Source: Methylobacter sp. BlB1
Lineage (GTDB): Bacteria; Pseudomonadota; Gammaproteobacteria; Methylococcales; Methylomonadaceae
Reading direction: 5' to 3'
DNA length: 64,000 nucleotides
NCBI RefSeq assembly: GCF_015476545.1
Contig: NZ_JADMKV010000014.1
Location: 1 to 64,000 of the forward strand
Positions 137-24,018 of this stretch are shown one piece after another. A program made the translations under genes and the position numbers. The notes below the pieces were generated by a model, which did no database searches, was not told the DNA's origin, and was given only the letters and a program-made list of their open reading frames with translations. Position 1 is the stretch's first letter. Every line of letters starts with the position of its first letter.

Positions 137-2620
137 TTACTGAACACGATACTGCACAAACACCCCAAAAACATGCTCGCCATAGTTCTCCGGTATCGCA
201 TTCAGAAACAGATGATTGCCGATCAGCGGCGTGAGGCCGTCGTAGTGCCAGTCTTGTACGGTGTTATGTTCATAACGATGATAGAAGCGCATCGATATGT
301 CCTTGCGCAGGTTCCATCTCAGGTTGGTTTCCAGAATATGCCTGTCGAAATTGATGACCGGAAAGCTATTGCTGGCGGCCTGATTGGGCGCATCTGGATT
401 GGCGAAGGCCAGGTTGGATGCGGCGTCATAGCCGACATTCGTATTGGCCCAGTTGTATGAATAACGGATGTCGATATCGAGCGGGTCGAACTGGTAGCGG
501 AACCCTAGCCCTATCATGTGGCTGATGTCGTCGACGGCTTCTTTCCAGGCCGCGATATAAGGGAAACGGCTGCCGCCGGCGTAAGGGTCGGCCGATAAGC
601 CGATGTCGTTGATATTGCTGAGCTGGCTTTGCTGTTTCTGAAAACTGTAGAAAGCGTAGGCATTCAGCCGTGAAGTAGGCTGATAGTTGCCTTCCAGATT
701 GGCCGAAATGGTGCGGGCGTTTTGCAGTCCGTAACGCACGTCATAAACGTTGTTGGTCCAGTTGGCGGAAGCGATCAGATCCAGATCCTCGCGCAGCAGG
801 AAGTTGGCCTGGGCCTTGATCTGGTGCTGCTGCCGGTCGCTCAGATCGTATTTTCTGAGATCGGCGAGCGTGTGCGGCGTGACGCCGTCGGTCAGCGACG
901 ATCTGAAGCCGAGCAGCGAGCCGGTATAGAAGGGTACGTAGGGGTTGTAGTCATAATCGCTGCCGTCCCGGGTCGAGTATTCGTAGGACAGGCGCAAGGT
1001 CGTCCAGGACAGTGAGCGGTTCGATAAATGGAATTTCAGATGGTTTTCATCGGTGCTGATGCGCTCGCGGTAGCTGGGTTCATGCTGTTCAAAATGATAG
1101 CCGAAGCCGGCCGTGGTCTTGTAGCTGAGCCGGTAATCGGCATCGAAGAACCAGTCCATGACTTTCTGCGAAAAGGGGATGCTGCGGTAATGAAACGGGC
1201 TTTGCGGCGTTGCCGGCCTGAAAACCTCGCCGCCTTGCGCGCCGTCTTCGAGGACCATTCCGTATTGGTTGGTCAGCCGGTTGAACGCCGTATAGTCCGT
1301 GTCATTGGCTTCGTTGTAATAGCGGAATTTCGCTTTCAGCGTCAAAGGGTCCCACGGTGCCAGTTGCAGGCCCAGTTGAAACAGCCAGTTCGTAATTTCG
1401 GCATCGGCGGTTCTTCGCGGCAGCGATGCGATTGAATTCCACTGGTCCATGTTGATGCCGGTAAAGGTCTGCCCTGAGTTGAGGGTTGACGGGAGCAGGT
1501 CATCATTCTGGTACATGCGCGACCAGGACAGTGTCGAGGTCAGCTGCCCGCGCATCGGCAGCCGGTAGGCGAGATCGGTCTTGACCTGGTGGAAGGTGTT
1601 GTCGGGATACAAATCGTAGCGGCCGCGCTCGACGATAAAGTTCGTGCCGGGAAGGTTGGTAAACGGGTTGTTGAAGCTCAGCTGGCCCTTGTCGTTGGCA
1701 AAGAATGAGCCGGTATAGTTCAGGTTGAGTTCTAGATCGGTGCCGGCATAGCTAAAGCCGGTGCGTATTTCATTGGTCACGTAATCGATGGGCTCGATGG
1801 TTTCGACCATGCCGCCTGAGTTCGCGCCGGCATAAAACGGCGGCAGGAACGAGCCGCCGAAAGCCCGCCGGCCTTCGCGCGTTTCATGGGAAAAATCGGC
1901 GAAGAATTTCAGGCCCAGTGTCGGCGTATAGTTGAAGCCGATGCGGCTTTCCTCCCGGTTGATGCCCAGATCGGGATTGTAGGCCGATGCCAGGGCCTGC
2001 CGGATTTGCTCGCTGTTGTTGCGGCCGGGAACAAGCCCGAACGGCAGCGTCAGGTTTTCGCTGCCGACACCGTGAAAAATCGTTACGGCATTGTCGGTAT
2101 AGGTATGCGGCGTCTGGTTGAAAAAACCGTTGATCCTGAAGGTGCCGAGTTGGCCTGTCGATAATTGATAATACTGATCGTCACGCCCGACACCGCCGCC
2201 TTGCGCGTCCAAAAAATAGCCTTCACGCGCCTGCCAGCCTGACAGCGAAAAGTAATTGAGCAAGGGACCGTTGCGCCAGTCGCTGTAATCGCTGAATTTA
2301 GAAGACGATTTTCTGCCGCTGCCGAATAAATAGCCGAAATCCAGACTGCCCCGGTATTGCCAGTCTTCATTCAGCTTCTTATAGTTTAACGGCTCATAGG
2401 GCGTATCGAACAGCAGGCCGCTCGGCGTTCTGGAAGGTTTCTGTTTGACCGAGGAAAGCCCCTGCGGGGATTTGATCCGGGTTGTATCGGTGCCCGTAGG
2501 ATTGAGGTTGTTCCCGGGCGGATTGCCGGCGCCGATCGCCGATGAGGTAAAGGCCAGCAATGCAACAAGCGAAGCAGTATATTGGCTGCCGGAGCGGCCG
2601 GCGCTGACAGCGGGCGGCAT
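137..2620 (-). CDS. MtrB/PioB-like decaheme-associated outer membrane beta-barrel
   Basis: A protein of about 827 residues with an N-terminal signal peptide (MPPAVSAGRSGSQYTASLVA onward, cut near AIGAG) and then a long series of alternating aromatic/polar beta-strand segments ending in a C-terminal strand (FGVFVQYRVQ), typical of porins. The MtrB/PioB family sheathes a periplasmic decaheme cytochrome so that electrons cross the outer membrane. The open frame extends upstream to 2719, but the ATG at 2620 has a GAGG seven bases before it, lies 10 bases after the stop of the decaheme gene, and begins a credible signal peptide. The adjacent decaheme gene is the main support for the assignment. 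The N-terminal CxxC pair of Shewanella MtrB is not seen, and the length is closer to PioB than to Shewanella MtrB. Confidence 0.85.
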   Translation of the reverse strand: MPPAVSAGRSGSQYTASLVALLAFTSSAIGAGNPPGNNLNPTGTDTTRIKSPQGLSSVKQKPSRTPSGLLFDTPYEPLNYKKLNEDWQYRGSLDFGYLFGSGRKSSSKFSDYSDWRNGPLLNYFSLSGWQAREGYFLDAQGGGVGRDDQYYQLSTGQLGTFRINGFFNQTPHTYTDNAVTIFHGVGSENLTLPFGLVPGRNNSEQIRQALASAYNPDLGINREESRIGFNYTPTLGLKFFADFSHETREGRRAFGGSFLPPFYAGANSGGMVETIEPIDYVTNEIRTGFSYAGTDLELNLNYTGSFFANDKGQLSFNNPFTNLPGTNFIVERGRYDLYPDNTFHQVKTDLAYRLPMRGQLTSTLSWSRMYQNDDLLPSTLNSGQTFTGINMDQWNSIASLPRRTADAEITNWLFQLGLQLAPWDPLTLKAKFRYYNEANDTDYTAFNRLTNQYGMVLEDGAQGGEVFRPATPQSPFHYRSIPFSQKVMDWFFDADYRLSYKTTAGFGYHFEQHEPSYRERISTDENHLKFHLSNRSLSWTTLRLSYEYSTRDGSDYDYNPYVPFYTGSLLGFRSSLTDGVTPHTLADLRKYDLSDRQQHQIKAQANFLLREDLDLIASANWTNNVYDVRYGLQNARTISANLEGNYQPTSRLNAYAFYSFQKQQSQLSNINDIGLSADPYAGGSRFPYIAAWKEAVDDISHMIGLGFRYQFDPLDIDIRYSYNWANTNVGYDAASNLAFANPDAPNQAASNSFPVINFDRHILETNLRWNLRKDISMRFYHRYEHNTVQDWHYDGLTPLIGNHLFLNAIPENYGEHVFGVFVQYRVQ

Positions 2621-2630
2621 CGCCGCCTCG

Positions 2631-3596
2631 CTATCGATGGAAAAGCATGCCCGCGGCATGATTGGAGCCATGAATCTGGGCATGGCAGTTTTGGCAGCTT
2701 CGGTTGATGAGGCGCGCATCCGGATTGGAAGCCGACGCCAGATTCGCGGTCGTCATCAAATCGTTGGGATGGCCGCGGTTGGTATGGCAGGTCTGGCACA
2801 GGAACGGCCTGGTGCTGACCAGCAGCGATTCGTGATTGGAGCCATGCGGCTGATGGCAATTCAGGCAGCTTTCCCGGACCGGCGCATGCTCCCAGATGAA
2901 AGGGCCGCGCTTTTCCTGATGGCATTGATAGCAAACCTGATTGACCGTATCGGCTTTCAGCATCGGGTCGGTGTTCGAACCGTGCGGATTGTGGCAGTCG
3001 ATGCAGGTGACTTTGCCTTCGGGCAAGGGCATGTGCGAGCGTTTTCTGAACTCGGCGCGCTGTTGCTGATGGCAGCTGTAGCAGGTCTGATTGATTTCAT
3101 CCTTGCGCAACAGGCCCTTTTGCGAGAACTGCGCCATCGGATTATGGCAATCGCTGCAGCTCAAGTCATTCATTTGATGGACTGAGCCCGGCCAGGCAAT
3201 GCGCTCCTTGCCGCTGTGGCACTGAAGGCACATGGAGTTCTGCTGGCTGACGGTCGCGCCTGACTGATGCGTGAACGCCATGATTTTCGATTTATCGGCA
3301 GGGGCCGATACGTGCTCTGACCCGGGGCCGTGACAGGTTTCGCAGCCTTCTACTTTCGGATTGTCCGGCGCGGCAAGATGGGGAATGCGCGCATGAACCG
3401 TATGGCTCCAGTGACTGTTTTCAAGTTCATGACAACTGGAACAAACGCTTGCTCCGACATACTGGGCATGGCTTTGCGCGGCATTGAGTTCCGGTTTCAG
3501 GGACGGTGGCGACAATGACGAACAGCTCATTATCGCCGCTATGCCGGCGATTAAAGTTAAATAAACCAGTCTCATACGTGAGAGAAAATCCTTCAT
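2631..3596 (-). CDS. DmsE/MtrA-type decaheme c-type cytochrome
   Basis: 321 residues with ten CxxCH heme-binding motifs spread evenly from residue ~50 to the C-terminus (CSSCH, CETCH, CLQCH, CSDCH, CYSCH, CIDCH, CYQCH, CLNCH, CQTCH, CQNCH), plus free histidines for the second axial ligands. This is the MtrA/DmsE/PioA family, which carries electrons through an MtrB-type barrel. The N-terminus (MKDFLSRMRLVYLTLIAGIA) is a signal peptide followed by IMSCSS, so lipid attachment is possible but the lipobox is weak. It lies 10 bp upstream of the barrel gene, so the two are co-transcribed. No MtrC/OmcA-like multiheme surface cytochrome is in the window. Relics of this gene's first ~110 bp are found upstream between the paralogous cytochrome genes. 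Confidence 0.92.
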   Translation of the reverse strand: MKDFLSRMRLVYLTLIAGIAAIMSCSSLSPPSLKPELNAAQSHAQYVGASVCSSCHELENSHWSHTVHARIPHLAAPDNPKVEGCETCHGPGSEHVSAPADKSKIMAFTHQSGATVSQQNSMCLQCHSGKERIAWPGSVHQMNDLSCSDCHNPMAQFSQKGLLRKDEINQTCYSCHQQQRAEFRKRSHMPLPEGKVTCIDCHNPHGSNTDPMLKADTVNQVCYQCHQEKRGPFIWEHAPVRESCLNCHQPHGSNHESLLVSTRPFLCQTCHTNRGHPNDLMTTANLASASNPDARLINRSCQNCHAQIHGSNHAAGMLFHR

Positions 3597-3673: not shown

Positions 3674-4405
3674 TCACTGTTGGATGGGAGGGTATTTGAG
3701 TAATCTGAACCGCAGTGGGTTAGATCCCGGTATCAATTCCATTTCAGCACTTACCGGGGTCTGGCTGGCGCCGTCTTTTATCATCTCTACATAAGGCAGA
3801 GTAACTAGACCGGTTTCAGTATCAGCATTCACGGCGCTGTCTGAATTGGTTGCGGTCAACTCGGCAGTTTCCAGTACGAATCCAAGACCGGTCGGGCTAT
3901 CCTGGAGCGGAATGAGCTTCAAGCCAGCCCTGAATTTTTGCGTGCCGACAAAAACGACCGGCAGGGTCAGCGTAGTGGTGTCATAAAAATAGGAGGCTGT
4001 CGTTGAAAGATTCGGAAAGCCGGGCTCTTCTAAAATAAACTGCATGGGCTCAGATCCTGTTATCAGCGTCAAGTAGGCATCTCCCGTGCCCAAGCTGGTG
4101 CCGCCTTGCGTTACCTCTACCAAAGGTATCAGCACTTGCCCTGTTTCAGGGTCAAACGTCGCGGGATTGTTTGAAGAAGCCGTAGTCAGTTCAGCGTTTT
4201 TCAATACGAATCCGTAGCCGGTTGGGCTATTGTTGGGCAGAGTGAGTCCGAGGGTGGCGTTGAATTTTTGGCTGCCGACATTAACGACTGGCAGTTTCAG
4301 CGTTAAACCGTCAAAAGAAGCGTTGGGCGCGACCGTTGCGGCAGCGAAAACACAGTCTGTGATAAGGAAAGAGAGCAGAATAACCAACGAGCTTTTTATC
4401 TTCAT
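3674..4405 (-). CDS. Secreted protein of two beta-rich repeats, paralogue without the heme domain
   Basis: 243 residues: a signal peptide (MKIKSSLVILLSFLITDCVF) followed directly by two copies (~28-135 and ~136-243) of a beta-rich domain. Its core reads roughly LxLPVVxVGxQKFxAxL, then SPTGxGFVLExAELT, an ATxDxETGxVxxP block and an SDPLxFxL-like end. It is the closest of four paralogues to the decaheme gene and the only one lacking the N-terminal cytochrome c domain; the signal peptide joins the repeats with no heme-domain remnant. The ATG at 4405 was chosen because it starts the signal peptide conserved in the paralogues and follows AGGGTGAACCT; the frame opens at 4462. I do not recognise the repeat domain, and its function is unknown. 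Location beside decaheme/MtrB genes suggests a periplasmic or surface electron-transfer accessory. Confidence 0.8.
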   Translation of the reverse strand: MKIKSSLVILLSFLITDCVFAAATVAPNASFDGLTLKLPVVNVGSQKFNATLGLTLPNNSPTGYGFVLKNAELTTASSNNPATFDPETGQVLIPLVEVTQGGTSLGTGDAYLTLITGSEPMQFILEEPGFPNLSTTASYFYDTTTLTLPVVFVGTQKFRAGLKLIPLQDSPTGLGFVLETAELTATNSDSAVNADTETGLVTLPYVEMIKDGASQTPVSAEMELIPGSNPLRFRLLKYPPIQQ

Positions 4406-4476
4406 AGGTTCACCCTTGATATAGGCCTGAGATATAAAAATATGACACAGGCTATCTAACATAAAAGATCATTACA

Positions 4477-4490
4477 TTGATTTTAATCAG
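4477..4490. promoter_or_regulatory. FNR/ANR-like dyad upstream of first paralogue
   Basis: TTGATTTTAATCAG matches the FNR-family consensus TTGAT-N4-ATCAA at 9 of 10 fixed positions. It lies about 72 bp upstream of the start at 4405, a distance that fits an activator site with a short leader. Equivalent dyads sit at the same place upstream of the other paralogues. Confidence 0.5.
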
Positions 4491-4604
4491 ATAAAAAGCC
4501 GATATTGAATATGAGCCTATTTTTACTGCCAGCAGGGTTTGTCATCATTCCGGGCAGAATATAATTGAAACTGGACAGTATATTAAGAGGTTATGCTGAA
4601 ATTG

Positions 4605-4686
4605 CGGATTCCGGGAGAGCGGCGGCAATGACGGACAATTCATTGTCGCCGCTAGGCGGCTAAGGTTAAATAAATCAGTCTCGCGC
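4605..4686 (-). pseudogene. Relic of the decaheme gene 5' end (copy 1)
   Basis: On the minus strand this stretch aligns with the signal-peptide region of the intact decaheme gene (3490-3580): both share a GGTTTATTTAAC-like run, a GCGGCGA-AATGA run and a CATTGTCGCCGC-like run. The start codon region is missing and nothing follows it, so it is a dead fragment. It lies between paralogues 1 and 2, as expected if the unit that was duplicated contained a paralogue gene plus the first ~110 bp of the decaheme gene. Confidence 0.65.
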
Positions 4687-4697
4687 CTTATCGGCAG

Positions 4698-4730
4698 AAA
4701 ACCAGCAATGATCAAATTCATTGCTGGTTT
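4698..4730 (-). terminator. Stem-loop after paralogue 2
   Basis: Inverted repeat accagcaatga / tcattgctggt just downstream of the stop at 4739 on the minus strand, followed by TTTTCTG. The stem is about 11-13 bp. The same hairpin follows paralogue 3 at 6081-6108. Likely an intrinsic terminator, so each paralogue may be its own transcription unit. Confidence 0.6.
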
Positions 4731-4738
4731 AATAGGCA

Positions 4739-5749
4739 TCATTGCGTGATAGGCGTGTAGCTGGTTAAGCTGAACTGTAACGGATCGGAGCCCGGTACCA
4801 ATTGCATTTCAGCGCTTACCTGACTTTCACTGACGCCGTTTCGCTGCAGATCAATTAAAGGCAGGGTGACTATTCCGGATGCGGGGTCATAAGTCGCAGG
4901 AGTGTCCGAAGTTAGTTGGGTCAACTCTGCGGCTTCCAGCTGGAAGCCAAGGCCGGTCGGACTGCTTGGGAGTTGGATGAGATTCAGGATTGCACTGAAC
5001 TTTTGCTCTCCGACATTGATGACCGGTATTGCCAGCTTGTTGGCGTCATAAGAGAAGAAGGCAACAGTTGGAATCTCTAAGCCGCTTTGTTCTAAATTAA
5101 ACGTCATAGGATCAGAGCCAGCCACTAATGTCAATTCGATATTCGTTACCTGATCTTGGACAGCGCCGTTCTGTACCACATCCACCGAAGGGATGAGTAC
5201 TTTTCCGGATGCGGAGTCATAAGTCGCGGCAGTATCCGAAGACTCCGTGGTCAACACGGCATTTTCCAGCACGAATCCAACGCCGGTCGGACTGCCTGTG
5301 AGTGGAATCAATCTCAGGGTGGCATTGAATTTCTGGCTGCCGACATCGACCACCGGAAGTTTCAATGTTGTTCCATCAAAAGTGGCATTGATAGGGGTGT
5401 CCGCCGCTGCTTGCGGGAAACCGGCGCTTTGCCATGCGAGCATGGCATCTTTTTGTTCCTGGTTAAGCGGTGGTTTGGTACCCGCGGGCGGCATTGTCAT
5501 TGCCTCAACAGCCCTGGTGATGGCACTATCAGCATTGGGTAGCGTTGCCTCATAGGTATCCCAGTTGACTCCGGGAGGCGCGCCGTTGCGCGCCGCTCCG
5601 GTCAGCTGAGACGAATGACAGGACAGACAGTTGGTGGCAAATACTTTCTCTCGAATGCCGTTGGGCCCGTCATAAACCGGATCAATAGCGAAAGCATGGC
5701 CTGTGATAAGGAAAGAAAACAGTAAGACTAACGAGCTCTTTATATTCAT
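4739..5749 (-). CDS. Secreted monoheme cytochrome c with two beta-rich repeats (paralogue 2)
   Basis: 336 residues. A signal peptide (MNIKSSLVLLFSFLITGHAF) is followed by a small cytochrome c domain (~22-115) with one CLSCH heme motif, a likely axial methionine in TMPPAG, and a closing helix QKDAMLAWQSAGFP. Two copies of the family beta-rich domain follow (~120-225 and ~228-336). The heme is bound by covalent attachment in the periplasm. The reading frame starts at an ATG preceded by AAAGGTGAACCT. It is one of three nearly collinear paralogues, and the role is unknown. A secreted or surface electron shuttle working with the neighbouring MtrAB-like pair is an inference from context only. Confidence 0.85.
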   Translation of the reverse strand: MNIKSSLVLLFSFLITGHAFAIDPVYDGPNGIREKVFATNCLSCHSSQLTGAARNGAPPGVNWDTYEATLPNADSAITRAVEAMTMPPAGTKPPLNQEQKDAMLAWQSAGFPQAAADTPINATFDGTTLKLPVVDVGSQKFNATLRLIPLTGSPTGVGFVLENAVLTTESSDTAATYDSASGKVLIPSVDVVQNGAVQDQVTNIELTLVAGSDPMTFNLEQSGLEIPTVAFFSYDANKLAIPVINVGEQKFSAILNLIQLPSSPTGLGFQLEAAELTQLTSDTPATYDPASGIVTLPLIDLQRNGVSESQVSAEMQLVPGSDPLQFSLTSYTPITQ

Positions 5750-5816
5750 AGGTTCACCTTTGGGGCTTGCAAATAAAGTCGTGATCTCAGATTATCTAAC
5801 TTAAAAAATCATTACA

Positions 5817-5830
5817 TTGATTTAAGTCAG
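5817..5830. promoter_or_regulatory. FNR/ANR-like dyad upstream of paralogue 2
   Basis: TTGATTTAAGTCAG, 8 of 10 matches to TTGAT-N4-ATCAA, about 70 bp upstream of the start at 5749. The flanking sequence (ATCATTACA before it) is the same as in front of paralogue 1, so the site is conserved by descent of the duplication. Confidence 0.45.
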
Positions 5831-5937
5831 GTAAAATCTATTGATGAGCATGAGCTTGATTTCTTATGTCGGTTGAGCGTCACCTTATCTCGGGTTGGAC
5901 ATAATCAGGGCGGCGCATGTATTTAAGAAGCTGTGTT

Positions 5938-6051
5938 GAGTTCCGGTTTCAGGGGACGGCGGCGACAATGGCGGGCAACCTGTTAGCGCCGCTATGCTGG
6001 CGATTGAAGTTAAATAAATCAATTTCATGCCTGAGATAAAAAGTCCTTCAT
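5938..6051 (-). pseudogene. Relic of the decaheme gene 5' end (copy 2, best preserved)
   Basis: Read on the minus strand from 6051, this begins ATGAAGGACTTTTTATCTCA, matching the true decaheme start at 3596. It then follows that gene through the signal peptide and the serine/proline-rich segment. One base is lost after codon 7, so the frame meets a TGA at once. No heme motif remains. It marks a tandem-duplication junction between paralogues 2 and 3. Confidence 0.8.
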
Positions 6052-6080
6052 CAATTAAAACATAGTCTTATCGGTAGACA

Positions 6081-6108
6081 ACCAGCAATGATCAAGTTCA
6101 TTGCTGGT
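6081..6108 (-). terminator. Stem-loop after paralogue 3
   Basis: accagcaatga (6081-6091) pairs perfectly with tcattgctggt (6098-6108), loop of 6, directly downstream of the stop at 6118 on the minus strand. It is nearly identical to the hairpin after paralogue 2. Confidence 0.6.
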
Positions 6109-6117
6109 TCGATGGAC

Positions 6118-7128
6118 TCATTCTGCGATAGGCGTGTAGTTGGTTAAGATGAACTGTAACGGATTGGAACCCGGTACCAATTGCATTTCGGCTCGGACCG
6201 CGCTTTGGATAATGTCGTCTTGTATCAGCTCTACGTAAGGCATAGTGACTAATCCGGTTGCAGTGTTGGCAGTCGCGGCAGTGTCCGAAGATGCGCCGGT
6301 CAGCACGGCGCTTTCCAGTACGAATCCAATACCGGTGGGGCTGCCGCCCAAAGAGACCAGTCTCAGGTTTGCGCGGAATTTCTGATTGCCGACAATGACA
6401 ACCGGCAGATTCAGAAGGGTGGTATTAAAAGAGTAGTTGGCGTTAGTGGGTACCGTCAAACGGTTATCCAAGCTGAACGTCATTGGATCAGAGCCCGGAA
6501 TCAATGTCAGCTGGATAGCCACTGTGCCTATATCGGTGCCGTTCTGTATTACTGCTGCCGAAGGTACAAATACTTTCCCGGTCGCAGGGTCGGCAGTGGC
6601 GGGATTGCTGGAAGATGCCGTGGTCAACGCGGCGTTCTCCAATACGAATCCGTTGCCGGTCGGGCTGCTTTCGAGCGGAATCAGCCTCAGGGAGGCATTG
6701 AATTTTTGATTGCCGATATTGACCACCGGGATTCTTAATCGGGTGCCGTCAAAAGAGGGATCGGCAGAGCCGGCAGTGGTTATAATGCCTTTTGGGAAGC
6801 CGGCGTCTTGCCACGCGAGCATGGCGGCACTTTGTTCTTCGTTAAGCAATGAACCGCTGGTACTGGGCGGCATAGACCCCTGCTCAACGGCCGCGACGAT
6901 GGCGCTCTCAGCATTCGGTCGCGTTGCCTCATAGGTATCAAAGTTGACGTCGTCCGGAGCGCCGTTGCGCGCCGAGCCGGTCAGATGGGAGGCATGGCAG
7001 GCCAGACAATTGGCGGCGAATACTTTTGCTCGAATGCCGTTGGGCCCGTCATAAACCGGATCAATGGCGAAAGCGGGGCCTGTGATAAGGAGAGAAAACA
7101 GCAGGATCAACGAACTTTTTATATTCAT
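6118..7128 (-). CDS. Secreted monoheme cytochrome c with two beta-rich repeats (paralogue 3)
   Basis: 336 residues, built like paralogue 2: signal peptide (MNIKSSLILLFSLLITGPAF), cytochrome c domain with one CLACH motif and MPPSTSG as the probable methionine-ligand loop, a closing helix SAAMLAWQDAGFPKG, then two beta-rich repeats (each with a QKFxAxLRL segment and SPTGxGFVLE). The frame opens at 7170, but the ATG at 7128 aligns with the starts of the paralogues and follows AAAGGTGAACCA. High identity to paralogue 2 indicates recent duplication. Function unknown; heme binding is clear from sequence. Confidence 0.85.
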   Translation of the reverse strand: MNIKSSLILLFSLLITGPAFAIDPVYDGPNGIRAKVFAANCLACHASHLTGSARNGAPDDVNFDTYEATRPNAESAIVAAVEQGSMPPSTSGSLLNEEQSAAMLAWQDAGFPKGIITTAGSADPSFDGTRLRIPVVNIGNQKFNASLRLIPLESSPTGNGFVLENAALTTASSSNPATADPATGKVFVPSAAVIQNGTDIGTVAIQLTLIPGSDPMTFSLDNRLTVPTNANYSFNTTLLNLPVVIVGNQKFRANLRLVSLGGSPTGIGFVLESAVLTGASSDTAATANTATGLVTMPYVELIQDDIIQSAVRAEMQLVPGSNPLQFILTNYTPIAE

Positions 7129-7197
7129 TGGTTCACCTTTGTGTGTAGGCTTTAAAAAGTCGCAATACACAGGCTAGCCTACGCCAAAAATCATGAC

Positions 7198-7233
7198 ATT
7201 GACTTTAGTCATACATGACATTGACTTTGGTCA
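7198..7233. promoter_or_regulatory. Two tandem FNR/CRP-like dyads upstream of paralogue 3
   Basis: TTGACTTTAGTCAT (7198-7211) and TTGACTTTGGTCAG (7220-7233) lie 22 bp apart inside a small local duplication of catgacattgactttrgtca. Both resemble the sites in front of paralogues 1 and 2 but with TTGAC-N4-GTCAN half sites. The doubling is unique to this copy and could change its expression. Confidence 0.45.
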
Positions 7234-7330
7234 GATAGAAAGCCGCTTTTGAATTTACCCCACGAACTGATGTCACACCATCTCGGACTGAGCATCATCA
7301 GGCCGACGCATGTATTTAAGAAGCTGTGCT

Positions 7331-7389
7331 AATTTCCCGCCTCAGGGACAGCGGCGATAATGGAGAGCATTCACCATTATCGCCGCTTT
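7331..7389 (-). pseudogene. Relic of the decaheme gene 5' end (copy 3, most decayed)
   Basis: Short minus-strand match to the decaheme 5' region: the cctcagggacagcggcgataatg-like segment and the ccattatcgccgct segment are retained, while the start codon and signal peptide are gone. It lies between paralogues 3 and 4 in the same position as the other two relics. It is weaker than they are and best read together with them. Confidence 0.5.
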
Positions 7390-7432
7390 CTTATAAGGGC
7401 ATGGCCTTATTGGTAAGGCGATAATGCTGAAG

Positions 7433-8455
7433 TTATTGCGGGCTTGCCGGATACCATGGGGCTACAGGCATAACGGTAGAGGCAGTTATGTTGAACAGCA
7501 GCGGATTAGAGCCTGGCACCAATTCCATTTCGGTAAGCATCTGGCCTAGCCTGACGCCGTTTTGCATCACTTTTATCACAGGCAGGACAACCTGTCCGGT
7601 TTCAGGATTATAAGTTGCGGCATCCTCTGAAGATGCCGTGGTCAGCTCAGCGCTTTCCAGCATAAAACCGGAATTTGATGGGCTGGTGAGGAGGGGAATT
7701 AGCTTCAGGGTTGCACGGAACTTCTGGTCTCCGACATTGACGACCGGCAGGGTCATGATACCGCTGCTATAATTGTAAGTAGCCGGGGGCGAAATTGTCG
7801 GAAAACTGGGATTATCCAAGGTAAATACCATTGGCGCTGAACCGGTTACCCAGGTCATCTGGACATCTCCGCTGCCCAGGCTGACGCCCTTTTCCATCAA
7901 CTCCACCGAAGGCAGATGCATTTGCCCGGTTTCAGGAGCAAAAGTTGCCGGATGCTCTGAAACCGCTGTGGTTGGCCCAATGCTATCCAGTATGAACCCG
8001 TAGCCGGTCGGACTATTTTTGAGAGAGGTTGATCTAAACGTGGCTTTGACTTTGCGATCGCCGATTTCGAGGACTGGGAGAGTCAGAATACTGCCGTCAA
8101 AAGAGGAAACAGCCGTTTTTGGGAAGCCGGCGCTTTGCCACGCGATCATGGCAGCCCTTTGTTCTTCGTTTAGAAGTGGTTTGGTGTTGACGGGAGGCAT
8201 CGATCTCTTCTCGACGGCCCTGACGACGGCGCGCTCAACCTTCTTTAGCGCTGCCTCATAGGTATCAAAGTTGACATCGGCCGGAGCGCCGTTGCGCGCC
8301 GAGCCGGGCAGATTGGATGTATGGCAGGCCAGACAATTGGAAGCGAATACCTTCGCTCGAATGCCGTTGGGTCCATCATAAACCGGATCAATGGCGAAAG
8401 CGGGGCTTGTAACAAGAAAAAGGGATAGTATGACTGATGTGTTTTTTATATCCAT
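7433..8455 (-). CDS. Secreted monoheme cytochrome c with two beta-rich repeats (paralogue 4)
   Basis: 340 residues and the most diverged heme-bearing copy. A signal peptide (MDIKNTSVILSLFLVTSPAF) precedes the conserved DPVYDGPNGIRAKVFASNCL stretch, the CLACH heme motif and SMPPVNT, followed by the helix RAAMIAWQSAGFPK. Two beta-rich repeats follow, the first with altered core residues (DRKVKATFRS in place of QKFNATLRL). The C-terminus carries a short extra proline-rich tail (VMPVAPWYPASPQ). It is the 5'-most member of the array and is divergent from the Mla-type operon starting at 8683. Role unknown; membership in the family is certain from the shared architecture. Confidence 0.83.
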   Translation of the reverse strand: MDIKNTSVILSLFLVTSPAFAIDPVYDGPNGIRAKVFASNCLACHTSNLPGSARNGAPADVNFDTYEAALKKVERAVVRAVEKRSMPPVNTKPLLNEEQRAAMIAWQSAGFPKTAVSSFDGSILTLPVLEIGDRKVKATFRSTSLKNSPTGYGFILDSIGPTTAVSEHPATFAPETGQMHLPSVELMEKGVSLGSGDVQMTWVTGSAPMVFTLDNPSFPTISPPATYNYSSGIMTLPVVNVGDQKFRATLKLIPLLTSPSNSGFMLESAELTTASSEDAATYNPETGQVVLPVIKVMQNGVRLGQMLTEMELVPGSNPLLFNITASTVMPVAPWYPASPQ

Positions 8456-18935: not shown

Positions 18936-19772
18936 ATGTCTGGGCACGATTGGGAGTCCTCCGTCTGGTTTCCGTCTGCAAACCGCAAGTCGACGGCAAA
19001 GATCCGGCTTTTCTGTTTCCCTTATGCCGGGGGGAATTCTTCTTTATTCAGTGCGTGGCCAGAATATTTTTCTGATTTGGTGGAGGTCTGTCCGGTAAAC
19101 TTGCCAGGACGGGGAATCCGCTTTCATGAGAAAGCGTTCACGCAATTGGCGCCGTTGGCGCGCGAACTTGCAACGGCGATAGCGCCGTGCCTCGATATAC
19201 CCTTTGCTTTTTTCGGACACAGCCTCGGCGGTCTGTTGGCTTTCGAACTGGCCCACGAGCTGCGGGCGGCGCACCGGATGATGCCCTTTTGCCTTTTTGT
19301 ATCGGGCTGTCGCACCCCTAGACGAGACGTACCGAAAAGGACACTCCACGACCTGCCTGAGGATGAATTCTTGACCGAAATTAAGCGAATTGGCGGCACT
19401 CCCGAAGATGTACTAAACAATCGTGAACTGATGTCAATAATGCTGCCGACCCTGCGTGCCGACTTCTCGCTCTGGGAAACTTACCGGTGCATGCGGAGCG
19501 AGCCGCTGACGTGTCCTATCGTGGCATTCGGAGGTCTGCAGGATTCTCGCGTTAGCTGCGAGCAACTCGAATCATGGTGTAAAGAGACGCGCGGACAGTT
19601 TTCACTCCATTTGTTTCCTGGCGATCATTTCTTCCTTCATGCCCAAACAATGCCGTTATTGGCTATAATCGCCCGGTACCTCGAACCGCAGATTCACAGG
19701 ATGGCCTTGCACATGCCGCTATCGGCTGTCCGATACCGTCAAAATGGAGCACAGGACTACGATTTATTTTAA
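18936..19772 (+). CDS. Type II thioesterase (NRPS editing)
   Basis: 278 residues, alpha/beta hydrolase fold of the GrsT/TEII family: an N-terminal RLFCFPYAGGNSSLFSAWPE segment, the nucleophile elbow GHSLGG (~94), GGLQDSRVSC near the acid, and the catalytic His in PGDHFFLHAQ. Such stand-alone thioesterases release wrongly loaded or stalled acyl groups from carrier domains. The gene starts 14 bp after mbtH and precedes the NRPS gene by 184 bp, so the three very likely function together. A short C-terminal tail after the canonical fold is not conserved in any way I recognise. Confidence 0.92.
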   Translation: MSGHDWESSVWFPSANRKSTAKIRLFCFPYAGGNSSLFSAWPEYFSDLVEVCPVNLPGRGIRFHEKAFTQLAPLARELATAIAPCLDIPFAFFGHSLGGLLAFELAHELRAAHRMMPFCLFVSGCRTPRRDVPKRTLHDLPEDEFLTEIKRIGGTPEDVLNNRELMSIMLPTLRADFSLWETYRCMRSEPLTCPIVAFGGLQDSRVSCEQLESWCKETRGQFSLHLFPGDHFFLHAQTMPLLAIIARYLEPQIHRMALHMPLSAVRYRQNGAQDYDLF

Positions 19773-19956
19773 GTTTCAATTATGAGTGACATGTTGTCGA
19801 GCGCTACGATCACGCTGTCGCGAAGGCAACCAGAATCGCAACATCTTTTAAATGATGAAGATACTGGATAATGAAGAACGATTACCCTCATTGTGCACCA
19901 TAAAATAACTGCCTATTGGCGAAAGACTCACTGAATCACAAGTAAAAAGAAAAATT

Positions 19957-24018
<4,062 letters not shown>

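Follow-up and report, generated by a model that had tools for sequence, protein, structure and literature searches.

In the 4.87-Mb genome of Methylobacter sp. BlB1 (G000), the opening 64,000 bases of a contig of 88,905 bases, referred to here as the window, were found to carry four tandem genes, P0001 to P0004, directly before genes for an MtrA-type decaheme cytochrome and an MtrB-type outer-membrane barrel. It was considered probable that this locus represents a distinct MtrAB lineage of Methylobacter and its close relatives, in which the one-heme carrier encoded before mtrA was fused to a new beta repeat of approximately 50 residues and duplicated in place, and in which the resulting proteins work in the periplasm under an Fnr-linked control. 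The genes of the locus were as follows.

3674 to 4405, minus strand: P0001, heme-less paralogue with a signal peptide and four beta half-repeats of approximately 50 residues
4739 to 5749, minus strand: P0002, monoheme cytochrome with four beta half-repeats
6118 to 7128, minus strand: P0003, monoheme cytochrome with four beta half-repeats
7433 to 8455, minus strand: P0004, monoheme cytochrome with four beta half-repeats
2631 to 3596, minus strand: mtrA, DmsE/MtrA-family decaheme cytochrome of 321 residues with ten CXXCH motifs (TIGR03508)
137 to 2719, minus strand: mtrB, MtrB/PioB outer-membrane barrel of 860 residues (PF11854 and TIGR03509)

The order of the genes on the minus strand was colinear (P0004, P0003, P0002, P0001, mtrA, mtrB), and P0001 to P0004 could be aligned along their length. 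The start of P0001 was set at 4405 because the beginning MxIK is common to all four genes; an alternative start lies upstream at 4462. Inspection by eye revealed at each N-terminus a signal peptide ending in an A-x-A-like site, which looked cleavable and was accompanied by neither a lipobox nor a known sorting domain. P0002, P0003 and P0004 each contained one CXXCH motif, at residue 41, followed by an MPP motif at residue 86. P0001 contained no CXXCH motif and no cytochrome domain, and retained the signal peptide and the beta part. The domain boundaries given below were taken from an alignment of cytochrome domains (A2) and an alignment of beta domains (A3), both of which were also used as search profiles. 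For the models, the mean predicted local distance difference test (pLDDT) and the predicted template modelling score (pTM) are given.

5414 to 5686, minus strand: cytochrome domain of P0002 (A2), with the CXXCH and MPP motifs at residues 41 and 86
6793 to 7065, minus strand: cytochrome domain of P0003 (A2)
8120 to 8392, minus strand: cytochrome domain of P0004 (A2)
3695 to 4324, minus strand: beta domain pair of P0001 (A3; AlphaFold2 pLDDT 88.4, pTM 0.70)
4757 to 5386, minus strand: beta domain pair of P0002 (A3)
6142 to 6762, minus strand: beta domain pair of P0003 (A3; AlphaFold2 model of the mature protein, pLDDT 79.4, pTM 0.47)
7484 to 8110, minus strand: beta domain pair of P0004 (A3)

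Both cysteines, the histidine and the later Met-Pro were invariant in 19 of 19 cytochrome domains aligned in A2. The model PF00034 matched P0002 and P0004 above its cut-off and P0003 slightly below it, and PF13442 matched all three proteins below its cut-off. The paralogues of the window were 44-56% identical in the beta part and 69-75% identical in the heme part. The full-length alignment, the CXXCH counts and the profile scores thus bore out the first-pass annotation of the window, which had described four tandem paralogues with a signal peptide and a doubled beta domain, three of them with a one-heme cytochrome. Its placement of the array directly upstream of a DmsE/MtrA decaheme gene and an MtrB/PioB barrel gene also held: the mtrA product matched TIGR03508 with 257.9 bits (E 9.5e-77; cut-off 192.2), and the mtrB product matched PF11854 with 434.8 bits (E 8.2e-130; cut-off 23) and TIGR03509 with 289.2 bits (cut-off 240.05). 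The mtrA reading frame overlapped mtrB.

The distribution of the locus was studied among 151 evenly drawn family genomes, one of which was the window's own. The window's genome is a Methylobacter relative, and Methylobacter luteus IMV-B-3098 (G053) fell in the same genus grouping, which makes the organism a gammaproteobacterial methanotroph near M. luteus. PF11854 matched in 38 genomes (above the cut-off in 35), the cytochrome domain (A2) in 10 and the beta domain (A3) in 18. The MtrB lineage of the window was found in six genomes: G000, G029, G053, Candidatus Methylobacter oryzae KRF1 (G065), Methylobacter sp. FW305_bin.9 (G128) and a Methylococcaceae metagenome-assembled genome (G097). MtrB of the relatives was 47-94% identical, and the next best matches reached 26-28%. 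The closest MtrB proteins outside the family were those of G155 (37%), in which the contig stops at the gene start, and G516 (29%). In all six genomes, cytochrome-beta genes stood directly before mtrA, either as a four-gene array (G000, G029 and G053) or as a single gene with two half-repeats (G065, G128 and G097). Among the four genomes of the genus as sampled, three contained both this MtrB lineage and the cytochrome-beta fusion, and one (G074) contained neither. These findings support the proposed tie between the array and the conduit.

Intact cytochrome-beta fusions were not found in any of the sampled family genomes that were devoid of this MtrB lineage. G008 and G086 contained a short form of the cytochrome, with one half-repeat, away from mtrAB, and G049 contained broken pieces of the cytochrome domain, with no MtrB found. 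Family members without MtrAB neighbours, which had been expected to speak against the tie, were therefore encountered only in part: the beta module alone occurred apart from mtrAB on unrelated secreted proteins, but the intact fusion occurred apart from mtrAB only in two genomes that also bear the locus (L036 and L044). Of 369 genomes drawn across the class, four contained the beta domain (E 1e-4), among them that of the window. The search with A2 yielded 15 loci, in which all strong matches belonged to Methylococcales; L101 to L105 were weak matches in other phyla and were left unused, and L106 was a fragment. The search with the single protein P0003 yielded no relatives. In an uncultured Methylococcaceae (L097:9896-10639), the same cytochrome domain was joined to an unrelated tail, with no mtrAB in the stretch viewed.

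The first-pass annotation had also noted that an MtrC-type multiheme surface cytochrome was missing. The window could not decide this point, since mtrB runs to within 137 bases of the contig end. The OmcA/MtrC model TIGR03507 gave nothing above its cut-off in any of the six genomes with this locus. Weak partial matches to this model were present in G053 (one) and G097 (two), and none in the window's own genome. In two near-complete genus-mates, open reading frames of at least 90 residues over approximately 2.9 kb after mtrB contained no CXXCH motif. A lipobox-like IMSC was observed at residues 22-25 of the window's MtrA (window 3522-3533), and a lipobox-like I/A-x-S-C was present near the N-terminus of MtrA in six of six genomes of this lineage; because of this, MtrA of this lineage may be a lipoprotein. 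By eye, the MtrA proteins of other MtrAB loci in the family had an ordinary-looking signal peptide.

To place the array among the MtrAB loci of the family, the MtrB neighbourhoods were viewed for 18 of the 29 other genomes above the PF11854 cut-off and for three genomes of the window's lineage (21 in total). The region before mtrA lay on the contig in 19 of these neighbourhoods, and in 18 of the 19 a gene with one CXXCH motif stood next to mtrA on the same strand. The exception was L088; in L083, such a gene was approximately 690 bases away. Outside the window's lineage, 15 of 16 testable loci had a different monoheme gene in this slot. In the common kind of locus, whose MtrB was 20-22% identical to that of the window, the carrier before mtrA was 108-140 residues long where present, and a monoheme protein of approximately 241 residues was encoded after mtrB in 12 of 15 loci. 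In a second kind (L074 to L076), a tetraheme gene and a monoheme gene for approximately 312 residues preceded mtrA; the one protein of the latter type that was scanned (L074:6228-7166) carried an ethylbenzene dehydrogenase domain (PF09459). In the window's lineage, the open reading frames viewed after mtrB contained no CXXCH motif in L034, L035, L042, L043 and L045, and the window's contig ends there. Because 18 of 19 loci have a one-CXXCH gene, of differing kinds, it can be concluded that the loci mostly share the position before mtrA but not the protein that fills it. These mostly one-heme, lineage-specific slot proteins point to a general periplasmic hand-over step.

Traces of the growth of the array were found in its spacers. 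They are listed below together with the hairpins that follow the cytochrome genes.

5936 to 6111, minus strand: decayed mtrA start together with upstream sequence, in the spacer following P0003 (blastn, 75% over 188 columns, E 2e-33)
4602 to 4714, minus strand: decayed mtrA start in two pieces, in the spacer following P0002 (blastn, 78% over 85, E 2e-15; 89% over 28, E 3e-6)
7334 to 7387, minus strand: doubtful mtrA-start remnant in the spacer after P0004, overlapping a hairpin (blastn, 74% over 54, E 1e-4)
6080 to 6109, minus strand: hairpin after the P0003 stop codon (spacer fold z -4.9), also present after the cytochrome gene in relatives
4700 to 4729, minus strand: the same hairpin after the P0002 stop codon (spacer fold z -5.0)

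Matches to the mtrA start were present in eight of the nine inner spacers of the three array species (E <=0.01), seven of them at E 2e-13 or better; the spacer without a match was that between P0003 and P0002 of G029. Of the three sequences, only L035 gave matches in the opposite-strand control (three, with a best E of 3e-4), so the match after P0004 (E 1e-4) was not considered to go beyond the control. Because the inter-gene spacers hold decayed mtrA starts, the array arose in place, and the duplicated unit consisted of the cytochrome gene, its upstream region and the first approximately 115 bases of mtrA. Since these units carry part of mtrA, the cytochrome gene stood directly before mtrA when the array began. 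The hairpin after the cytochrome stop codon belongs to the duplicated unit as well. In M. luteus and Ca. M. oryzae it precedes mtrA, but it was eroded between P0001 and mtrA in the window (spacer fold z +0.5) and in G029; this erosion would make read-through into mtrAB more likely.

In a tree of single beta domains, the first and second domains of P0002, P0003 and P0004 fell into separate clades with their orthologues (support 92/88 to 100/100). Because of this separation, the doubling of the domain appears to be older than the amplification of the gene. The first beta domain of P0001 grouped with that of a heme-bearing G053 gene (94/91), which suggests that P0001 lost its heme domain. In this tree, which did not include P0001 and P0002 of G029, the deep forks between first and second domains were weakly supported, and most clades by gene and position were strong. 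Between G000 and G029, the ratio of nonsynonymous to synonymous substitution rates was 0.20-0.30 for the four genes, 0.23 for the heme-less P0001 and 0.13 for mtrB. Therefore, all four array genes, the heme-less one included, are under purifying selection.

The beta domain, which had not been recognised in the first-pass annotation, indeed had no clear match in Pfam, NCBIfam or the fold searches. Its eight copies scored E 2.5e-42 to 7.1e-41 against a profile built from them among others. The beta-repeat family is absent from the libraries searched: no Pfam or NCBIfam model covered the domain, and one sub-threshold Ig-like match spanned 22 residues of P0002. The AlphaFold2 models of P0001 and P0003 showed repeated beta meanders. 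With these two models, no solved structure was matched by Foldseek at E <=0.001 or by VIA-align at Z >=4 (best Z 3.6 and 3.8). A search of PDB sequences returned four designed proteins over 37-38 residues (E 4e-4 to 6e-3), with no single stretch passing alone; we take these to be propeller-like. Many Foldseek and VIA-align rows, matched over 40-80 residues, were presumably propeller proteins too, which serves as a lead only. A known fold for the beta domain, sought in Pfam, NCBIfam, the PDB, Foldseek and VIA-align, was thus not assigned.

The first-pass annotation had given each protein two copies of a domain of approximately 105 residues. Two copies were found, each of approximately 98 residues, but the true unit proved to be half that size, approximately 50 residues, with four units per protein. 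The evidence for this unit comes from relatives. The two halves of the domain matched each other in L179 (E 1e-16) and L177 (E 1e-12), the tail of the short cytochrome L099 was a single unit that matched the fourth unit of P0002 (E 7e-8), and an L041 unit matched both half kinds of P0002 (E 1e-4 and 3e-6); these values were obtained with a database of 15 segments whose borders were set by hand. Within the window's own family of paralogues, the two half kinds are too diverged to match directly. The first and second halves of the P0002 domain showed no mutual match at E 0.05, and the aligned halves of A3 scored 17.2, not exceeding the best of 100 column shuffles (18.0; mean 9.3). Cytochromes with one unit (L099 of Methyloprofundus, G008, G086 and G090), two units (G065, G128 and G097) and four units (G000, G029 and G053) form a series.

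The same module was present on other proteins. At the end of an 893-residue lysyl-oxidase-like protein with Ig domains, encoded on contig C2 of the window's genome (L033:6383-9064), a beta pair was found, and proteins similar to it were encoded in G029 (L039) and G053 (L037). A glucose/sorbosone dehydrogenase-like protein of G029 (PF07995; L038:7153-9048) also ended in a beta pair. In other Gammaproteobacteria, the module occurred on CAP-domain (L178) and laminin-G-like (L177) proteins. Four diverged half-repeats were located near the start of L040:6698-8773 (691 residues) and of L041:5813-7771 (652 residues, without a Pfam match). Because it was found on unrelated secreted proteins, the beta module is a general add-on whose presence alone is uninformative on electron transfer.

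The regions upstream of the array genes contained palindromes similar to the site of the regulator Fnr.

4477 to 4490, minus strand: Fnr-like palindrome CTGATTAAAATCAA before P0001, with TAGCCT at the -10 distance
5817 to 5830, minus strand: Fnr-like palindrome CTGACTTAAATCAA before P0002, with TAATCT at the -10 distance
7199 to 7212, minus strand: Fnr-like palindrome ATGACTAAAGTCAA before P0003, with TAGCCT at the -10 distance
7221 to 7234, minus strand: second Fnr-like palindrome CTGACCAAAGTCAA before P0003, with no -10-like hexamer at that distance

The 250 bases upstream of 22 cytochrome or paralogue genes were surveyed. In the three array species, the palindrome CTGAY-N4-RTCAA (ATGAC in one) preceded nine of nine genes of the P0001, P0002 and P0003 types. 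It lay at positions -80 to -89 relative to the start codon, and a TANNNT hexamer began 29 bases from its centre. The Fnr consensus is TTGAT-N4-ATCAA, and an activator site lies approximately 41 bases (-41.5) before the transcription start; the form and distance of the palindromes fit an Fnr-type activator at -41.5. The spacers and flanks of the arrays contained four, three and three such boxes in 1327, 1246 and 1226 bases in the three species, and the three sequences outside the arrays contained four in 58,896, one in 14,968 and none in 14,670 bases. None of the 36 other open reading frames of at least 150 residues in the window, not all of which need be genes, had a box within 250 bases upstream. 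A simple scan for promoters and terminators gave no enrichment over shuffled sequences. Of the six Crp/Fnr matches in the genome, four were inspected, and an Fnr homologue was found among the genome's proteins (L184:694-1740); by eye, it carries CxxC-x5-C and E-x-x-S-R, which we take to be the Fnr motif. This protein also has an extra N-terminal part of approximately 120 residues. Together, these data suggest low-oxygen (Fnr) control of the P0001- to P0003-type genes.

From these results, the following course of events may be proposed. A carrier gene would have been duplicated in place together with the first approximately 115 bases of mtrA; the four resulting paralogues would have diverged, with loss of the heme domain in one of them. 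P0001 to P0004 would be exported by the general pathway and remain in the periplasm. The heme would be held by the histidine of CXXCH and probably by the methionine of the MPP motif, and it would take electrons from the respiratory chain and pass them to MtrA, or work in the reverse direction. The beta repeats may anchor the heme domain, or set its spacing, on MtrAB, on one another or on a further component of the envelope. Expression of P0001 to P0003, and of mtrAB through read-through from P0001, would rise when Fnr is active at low oxygen. The first-pass annotation had considered periplasmic or surface partners of the conduit. Of these, a periplasmic partner is the most plausible by analogy with the other MtrAB loci of the family, as 15 of 16 testable ones carry a different monoheme gene at that position. 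The cleavable-looking signal without a lipobox, judged by eye, gives no support to a surface location.

Several observations weigh against this periplasmic, Fnr-linked reading. In G000 and G029, the gene adjoining mtrA is the heme-less one (P0001 in the window). Extra cytochrome-beta copies unlinked to mtrAB are present in M. luteus (L036, 382 residues) and Ca. M. oryzae (L044), and G090 contains the short form and a broken cytochrome-beta fragment (L050), with no MtrB found. With the single small slot cytochrome that was compared (L085), A2 had no specific similarity, the match lying around the heme motif only. Because the module is also carried by non-redox secreted proteins, it is possibly unrelated to the conduit. 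As for regulation, the palindrome was absent from the other 13 of the 22 upstream regions, including those of three P0004-type and three linked single-copy genes; thus, Fnr control may not extend to the first gene or to the ancestral state. A whole-genome scan for the palindrome with a -10 hexamer gave two hits, both in the array, with none in the control and approximately 0.6 expected by estimate. The Fnr homologue scored 196.7 bits with its best model, NF008365, below the cut-off of 228. Since the pattern was chosen after inspection and the nine genes are related by descent, the palindromes are a lead only.

The unlinked M. luteus copy (L036:8679-9827) lies on a 318-kb contig beside conjugative-transfer-like genes, which we take to be TraL/TraE-like; because of this position, the cytochrome-beta fusion may be mobile.

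Other explanations of the locus were weighed against the same evidence. It is doubtful, though conceivable, that the conduit imports electrons from Fe(II) or another reduced donor and that the cytochromes relay them to the respiratory chain in the way suggested for MtoD and PmcA. An MtrAB without MtrC does resemble MtoAB, whose cluster has monoheme carriers according to the portions available of PMC4412085 and PMC13390432, but the sequence does not reveal which way electrons flow. Moreover, a methane-dependent outward current was obtained from an anode community in which a Methylobacter with a different MtrAB locus was enriched, although its authors did not demonstrate that this locus carries the current (PMC13322032). 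That the proteins are instead secreted to the surface, where they would stand in for MtrC as the last electron donor or acceptor while the beta repeats form a surface scaffold, was judged unlikely. The six locus-bearing genomes have no OmcA/MtrC-type cytochrome above the cut-off, the beta module is carried by further proteins that have signal-like starts and include several large ones, and in M. capsulatus a number of c-type cytochromes have been recovered at the cell surface (PMC4831470, as far as its available text goes). However, each protein has one heme, and by eye its signal is accompanied by no lipobox or known sorting domain; the same-slot gene of the Methylobacter_1 locus was predicted to be periplasmic (PMC13322032, available part). 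According to the accessible part of PMC8805035, Sideroxydans and Gallionella also have MtrAB homologues without MtrC.

A separate envelope function for the cytochromes and beta repeats, with mere proximity to mtrAB, was considered still less likely. The presence of the module on lysyl-oxidase-like, sugar-dehydrogenase-like, CAP-domain and laminin-G-like proteins and the unlinked cytochrome-beta copies would fit such a function, but adjacency was kept in six of six genomes across MtrB divergence down to 47%, and the part of mtrA carried in the duplicated units places a cytochrome gene before mtrA at the start of the array. The suggestion that amplification tunes the dose of one protein was rejected as very improbable. 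Although the arrangement is tandem and three of the four genes share a promoter-like element, the copies are old, with beta parts only 44-56% and heme parts 69-75% identical, orthologous sets exist in three species, and the heme-less member is under purifying selection. Within the preferred periplasmic reading, an elaboration can be imagined in which the beta units form a modular scaffold side by side within and between chains, the heme domains are lined up before MtrA as a periplasmic bridge, P0001 acts as a spacer or cap, and the series of one, two and four units records the evolution of a wire built from single hemes on a repeat scaffold instead of from multiheme cytochromes; such a structure is quite unlikely to be realised in full.

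The locus was compared with known systems. Like the extracellular electron transfer locus of Methylobacter_1 (genes 02045-02048; PMC13322032, available text), it combines a monoheme cytochrome, an MtrA/DmsE decaheme cytochrome and an MtrB/PioB barrel in a methanotroph without MtrC. That locus has a monoheme gene before mtrA and also one, for an inner-membrane cytochrome, after mtrB; in contrast, the carrier of the window's lineage is fused to beta repeats and amplified, and no monoheme gene was seen after mtrB. The Methylobacter_1 locus was assigned to the common locus kind of the family by its described gene content and not by sequence. The 70% identity rule given in the part of PMC13322032 at hand would presumably have missed the window's lineage.

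In the Mto pathway of Sideroxydans lithotrophicus ES-1, two periplasmic monoheme carriers, of +155 and about -143 mV, coexist (PMC13390432, available portion). As in that pathway (MtoAB, MtoD and PmcA), an MtrAB-type conduit without MtrC is encoded here in a cluster with monoheme carriers, which would likewise be periplasmic; divergent paralogues with different potentials or partners would be a natural analogue of the two Mto carriers. Unlike in the Mto pathway, no tetraheme gene was seen beside the loci of the window's lineage that were viewed. MtoD has bis-His ligation and, in the accessible text of PMC4412085, no proline-rich distal site, whereas the cytochromes of the window have an invariant Met-Pro (19 of 19 rows), known here from sequence alone. 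MtoD (4XXL) was not among the 60 of 89 matches listed in the PDB search with A2. The window's locus shares the MtrA/DmsE decaheme and MtrB barrel families with MtrCAB of Shewanella and differs from it in the lack of an OmcA/MtrC-type cytochrome above the cut-off and in the added monoheme-beta fusions. The cytochrome domains resemble class I cytochrome c (PF00034, PF13442) in the CXXCH motif, the later Met-Pro and a helical domain of approximately 90 residues, but they score only around the family cut-offs.

The presence of mtrAB in Methylobacter was already known, since a figure legend in PMC12810054, the part of that source used here, marks MtrA/MtrB and MtoA hits in Methylobacter genomes. 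No published description of the array or of the cytochrome-beta fusion was found, judging from titles and abstract openings. The locus is thus a second, distantly related MtrAB lineage in the same bacterial family. Whether aerobic methanotrophs export electrons when oxygen runs out is an open question on which the available text of PMC13322032 gives a recent electrode result. M. luteus is named there as the type species of the genus; because it carries the locus, the question is testable in a cultured strain.

Elsewhere in the window (18936-24018), reading of the translations revealed a thioesterase-like protein beside a nonribosomal peptide synthetase-like protein of 1353 residues.

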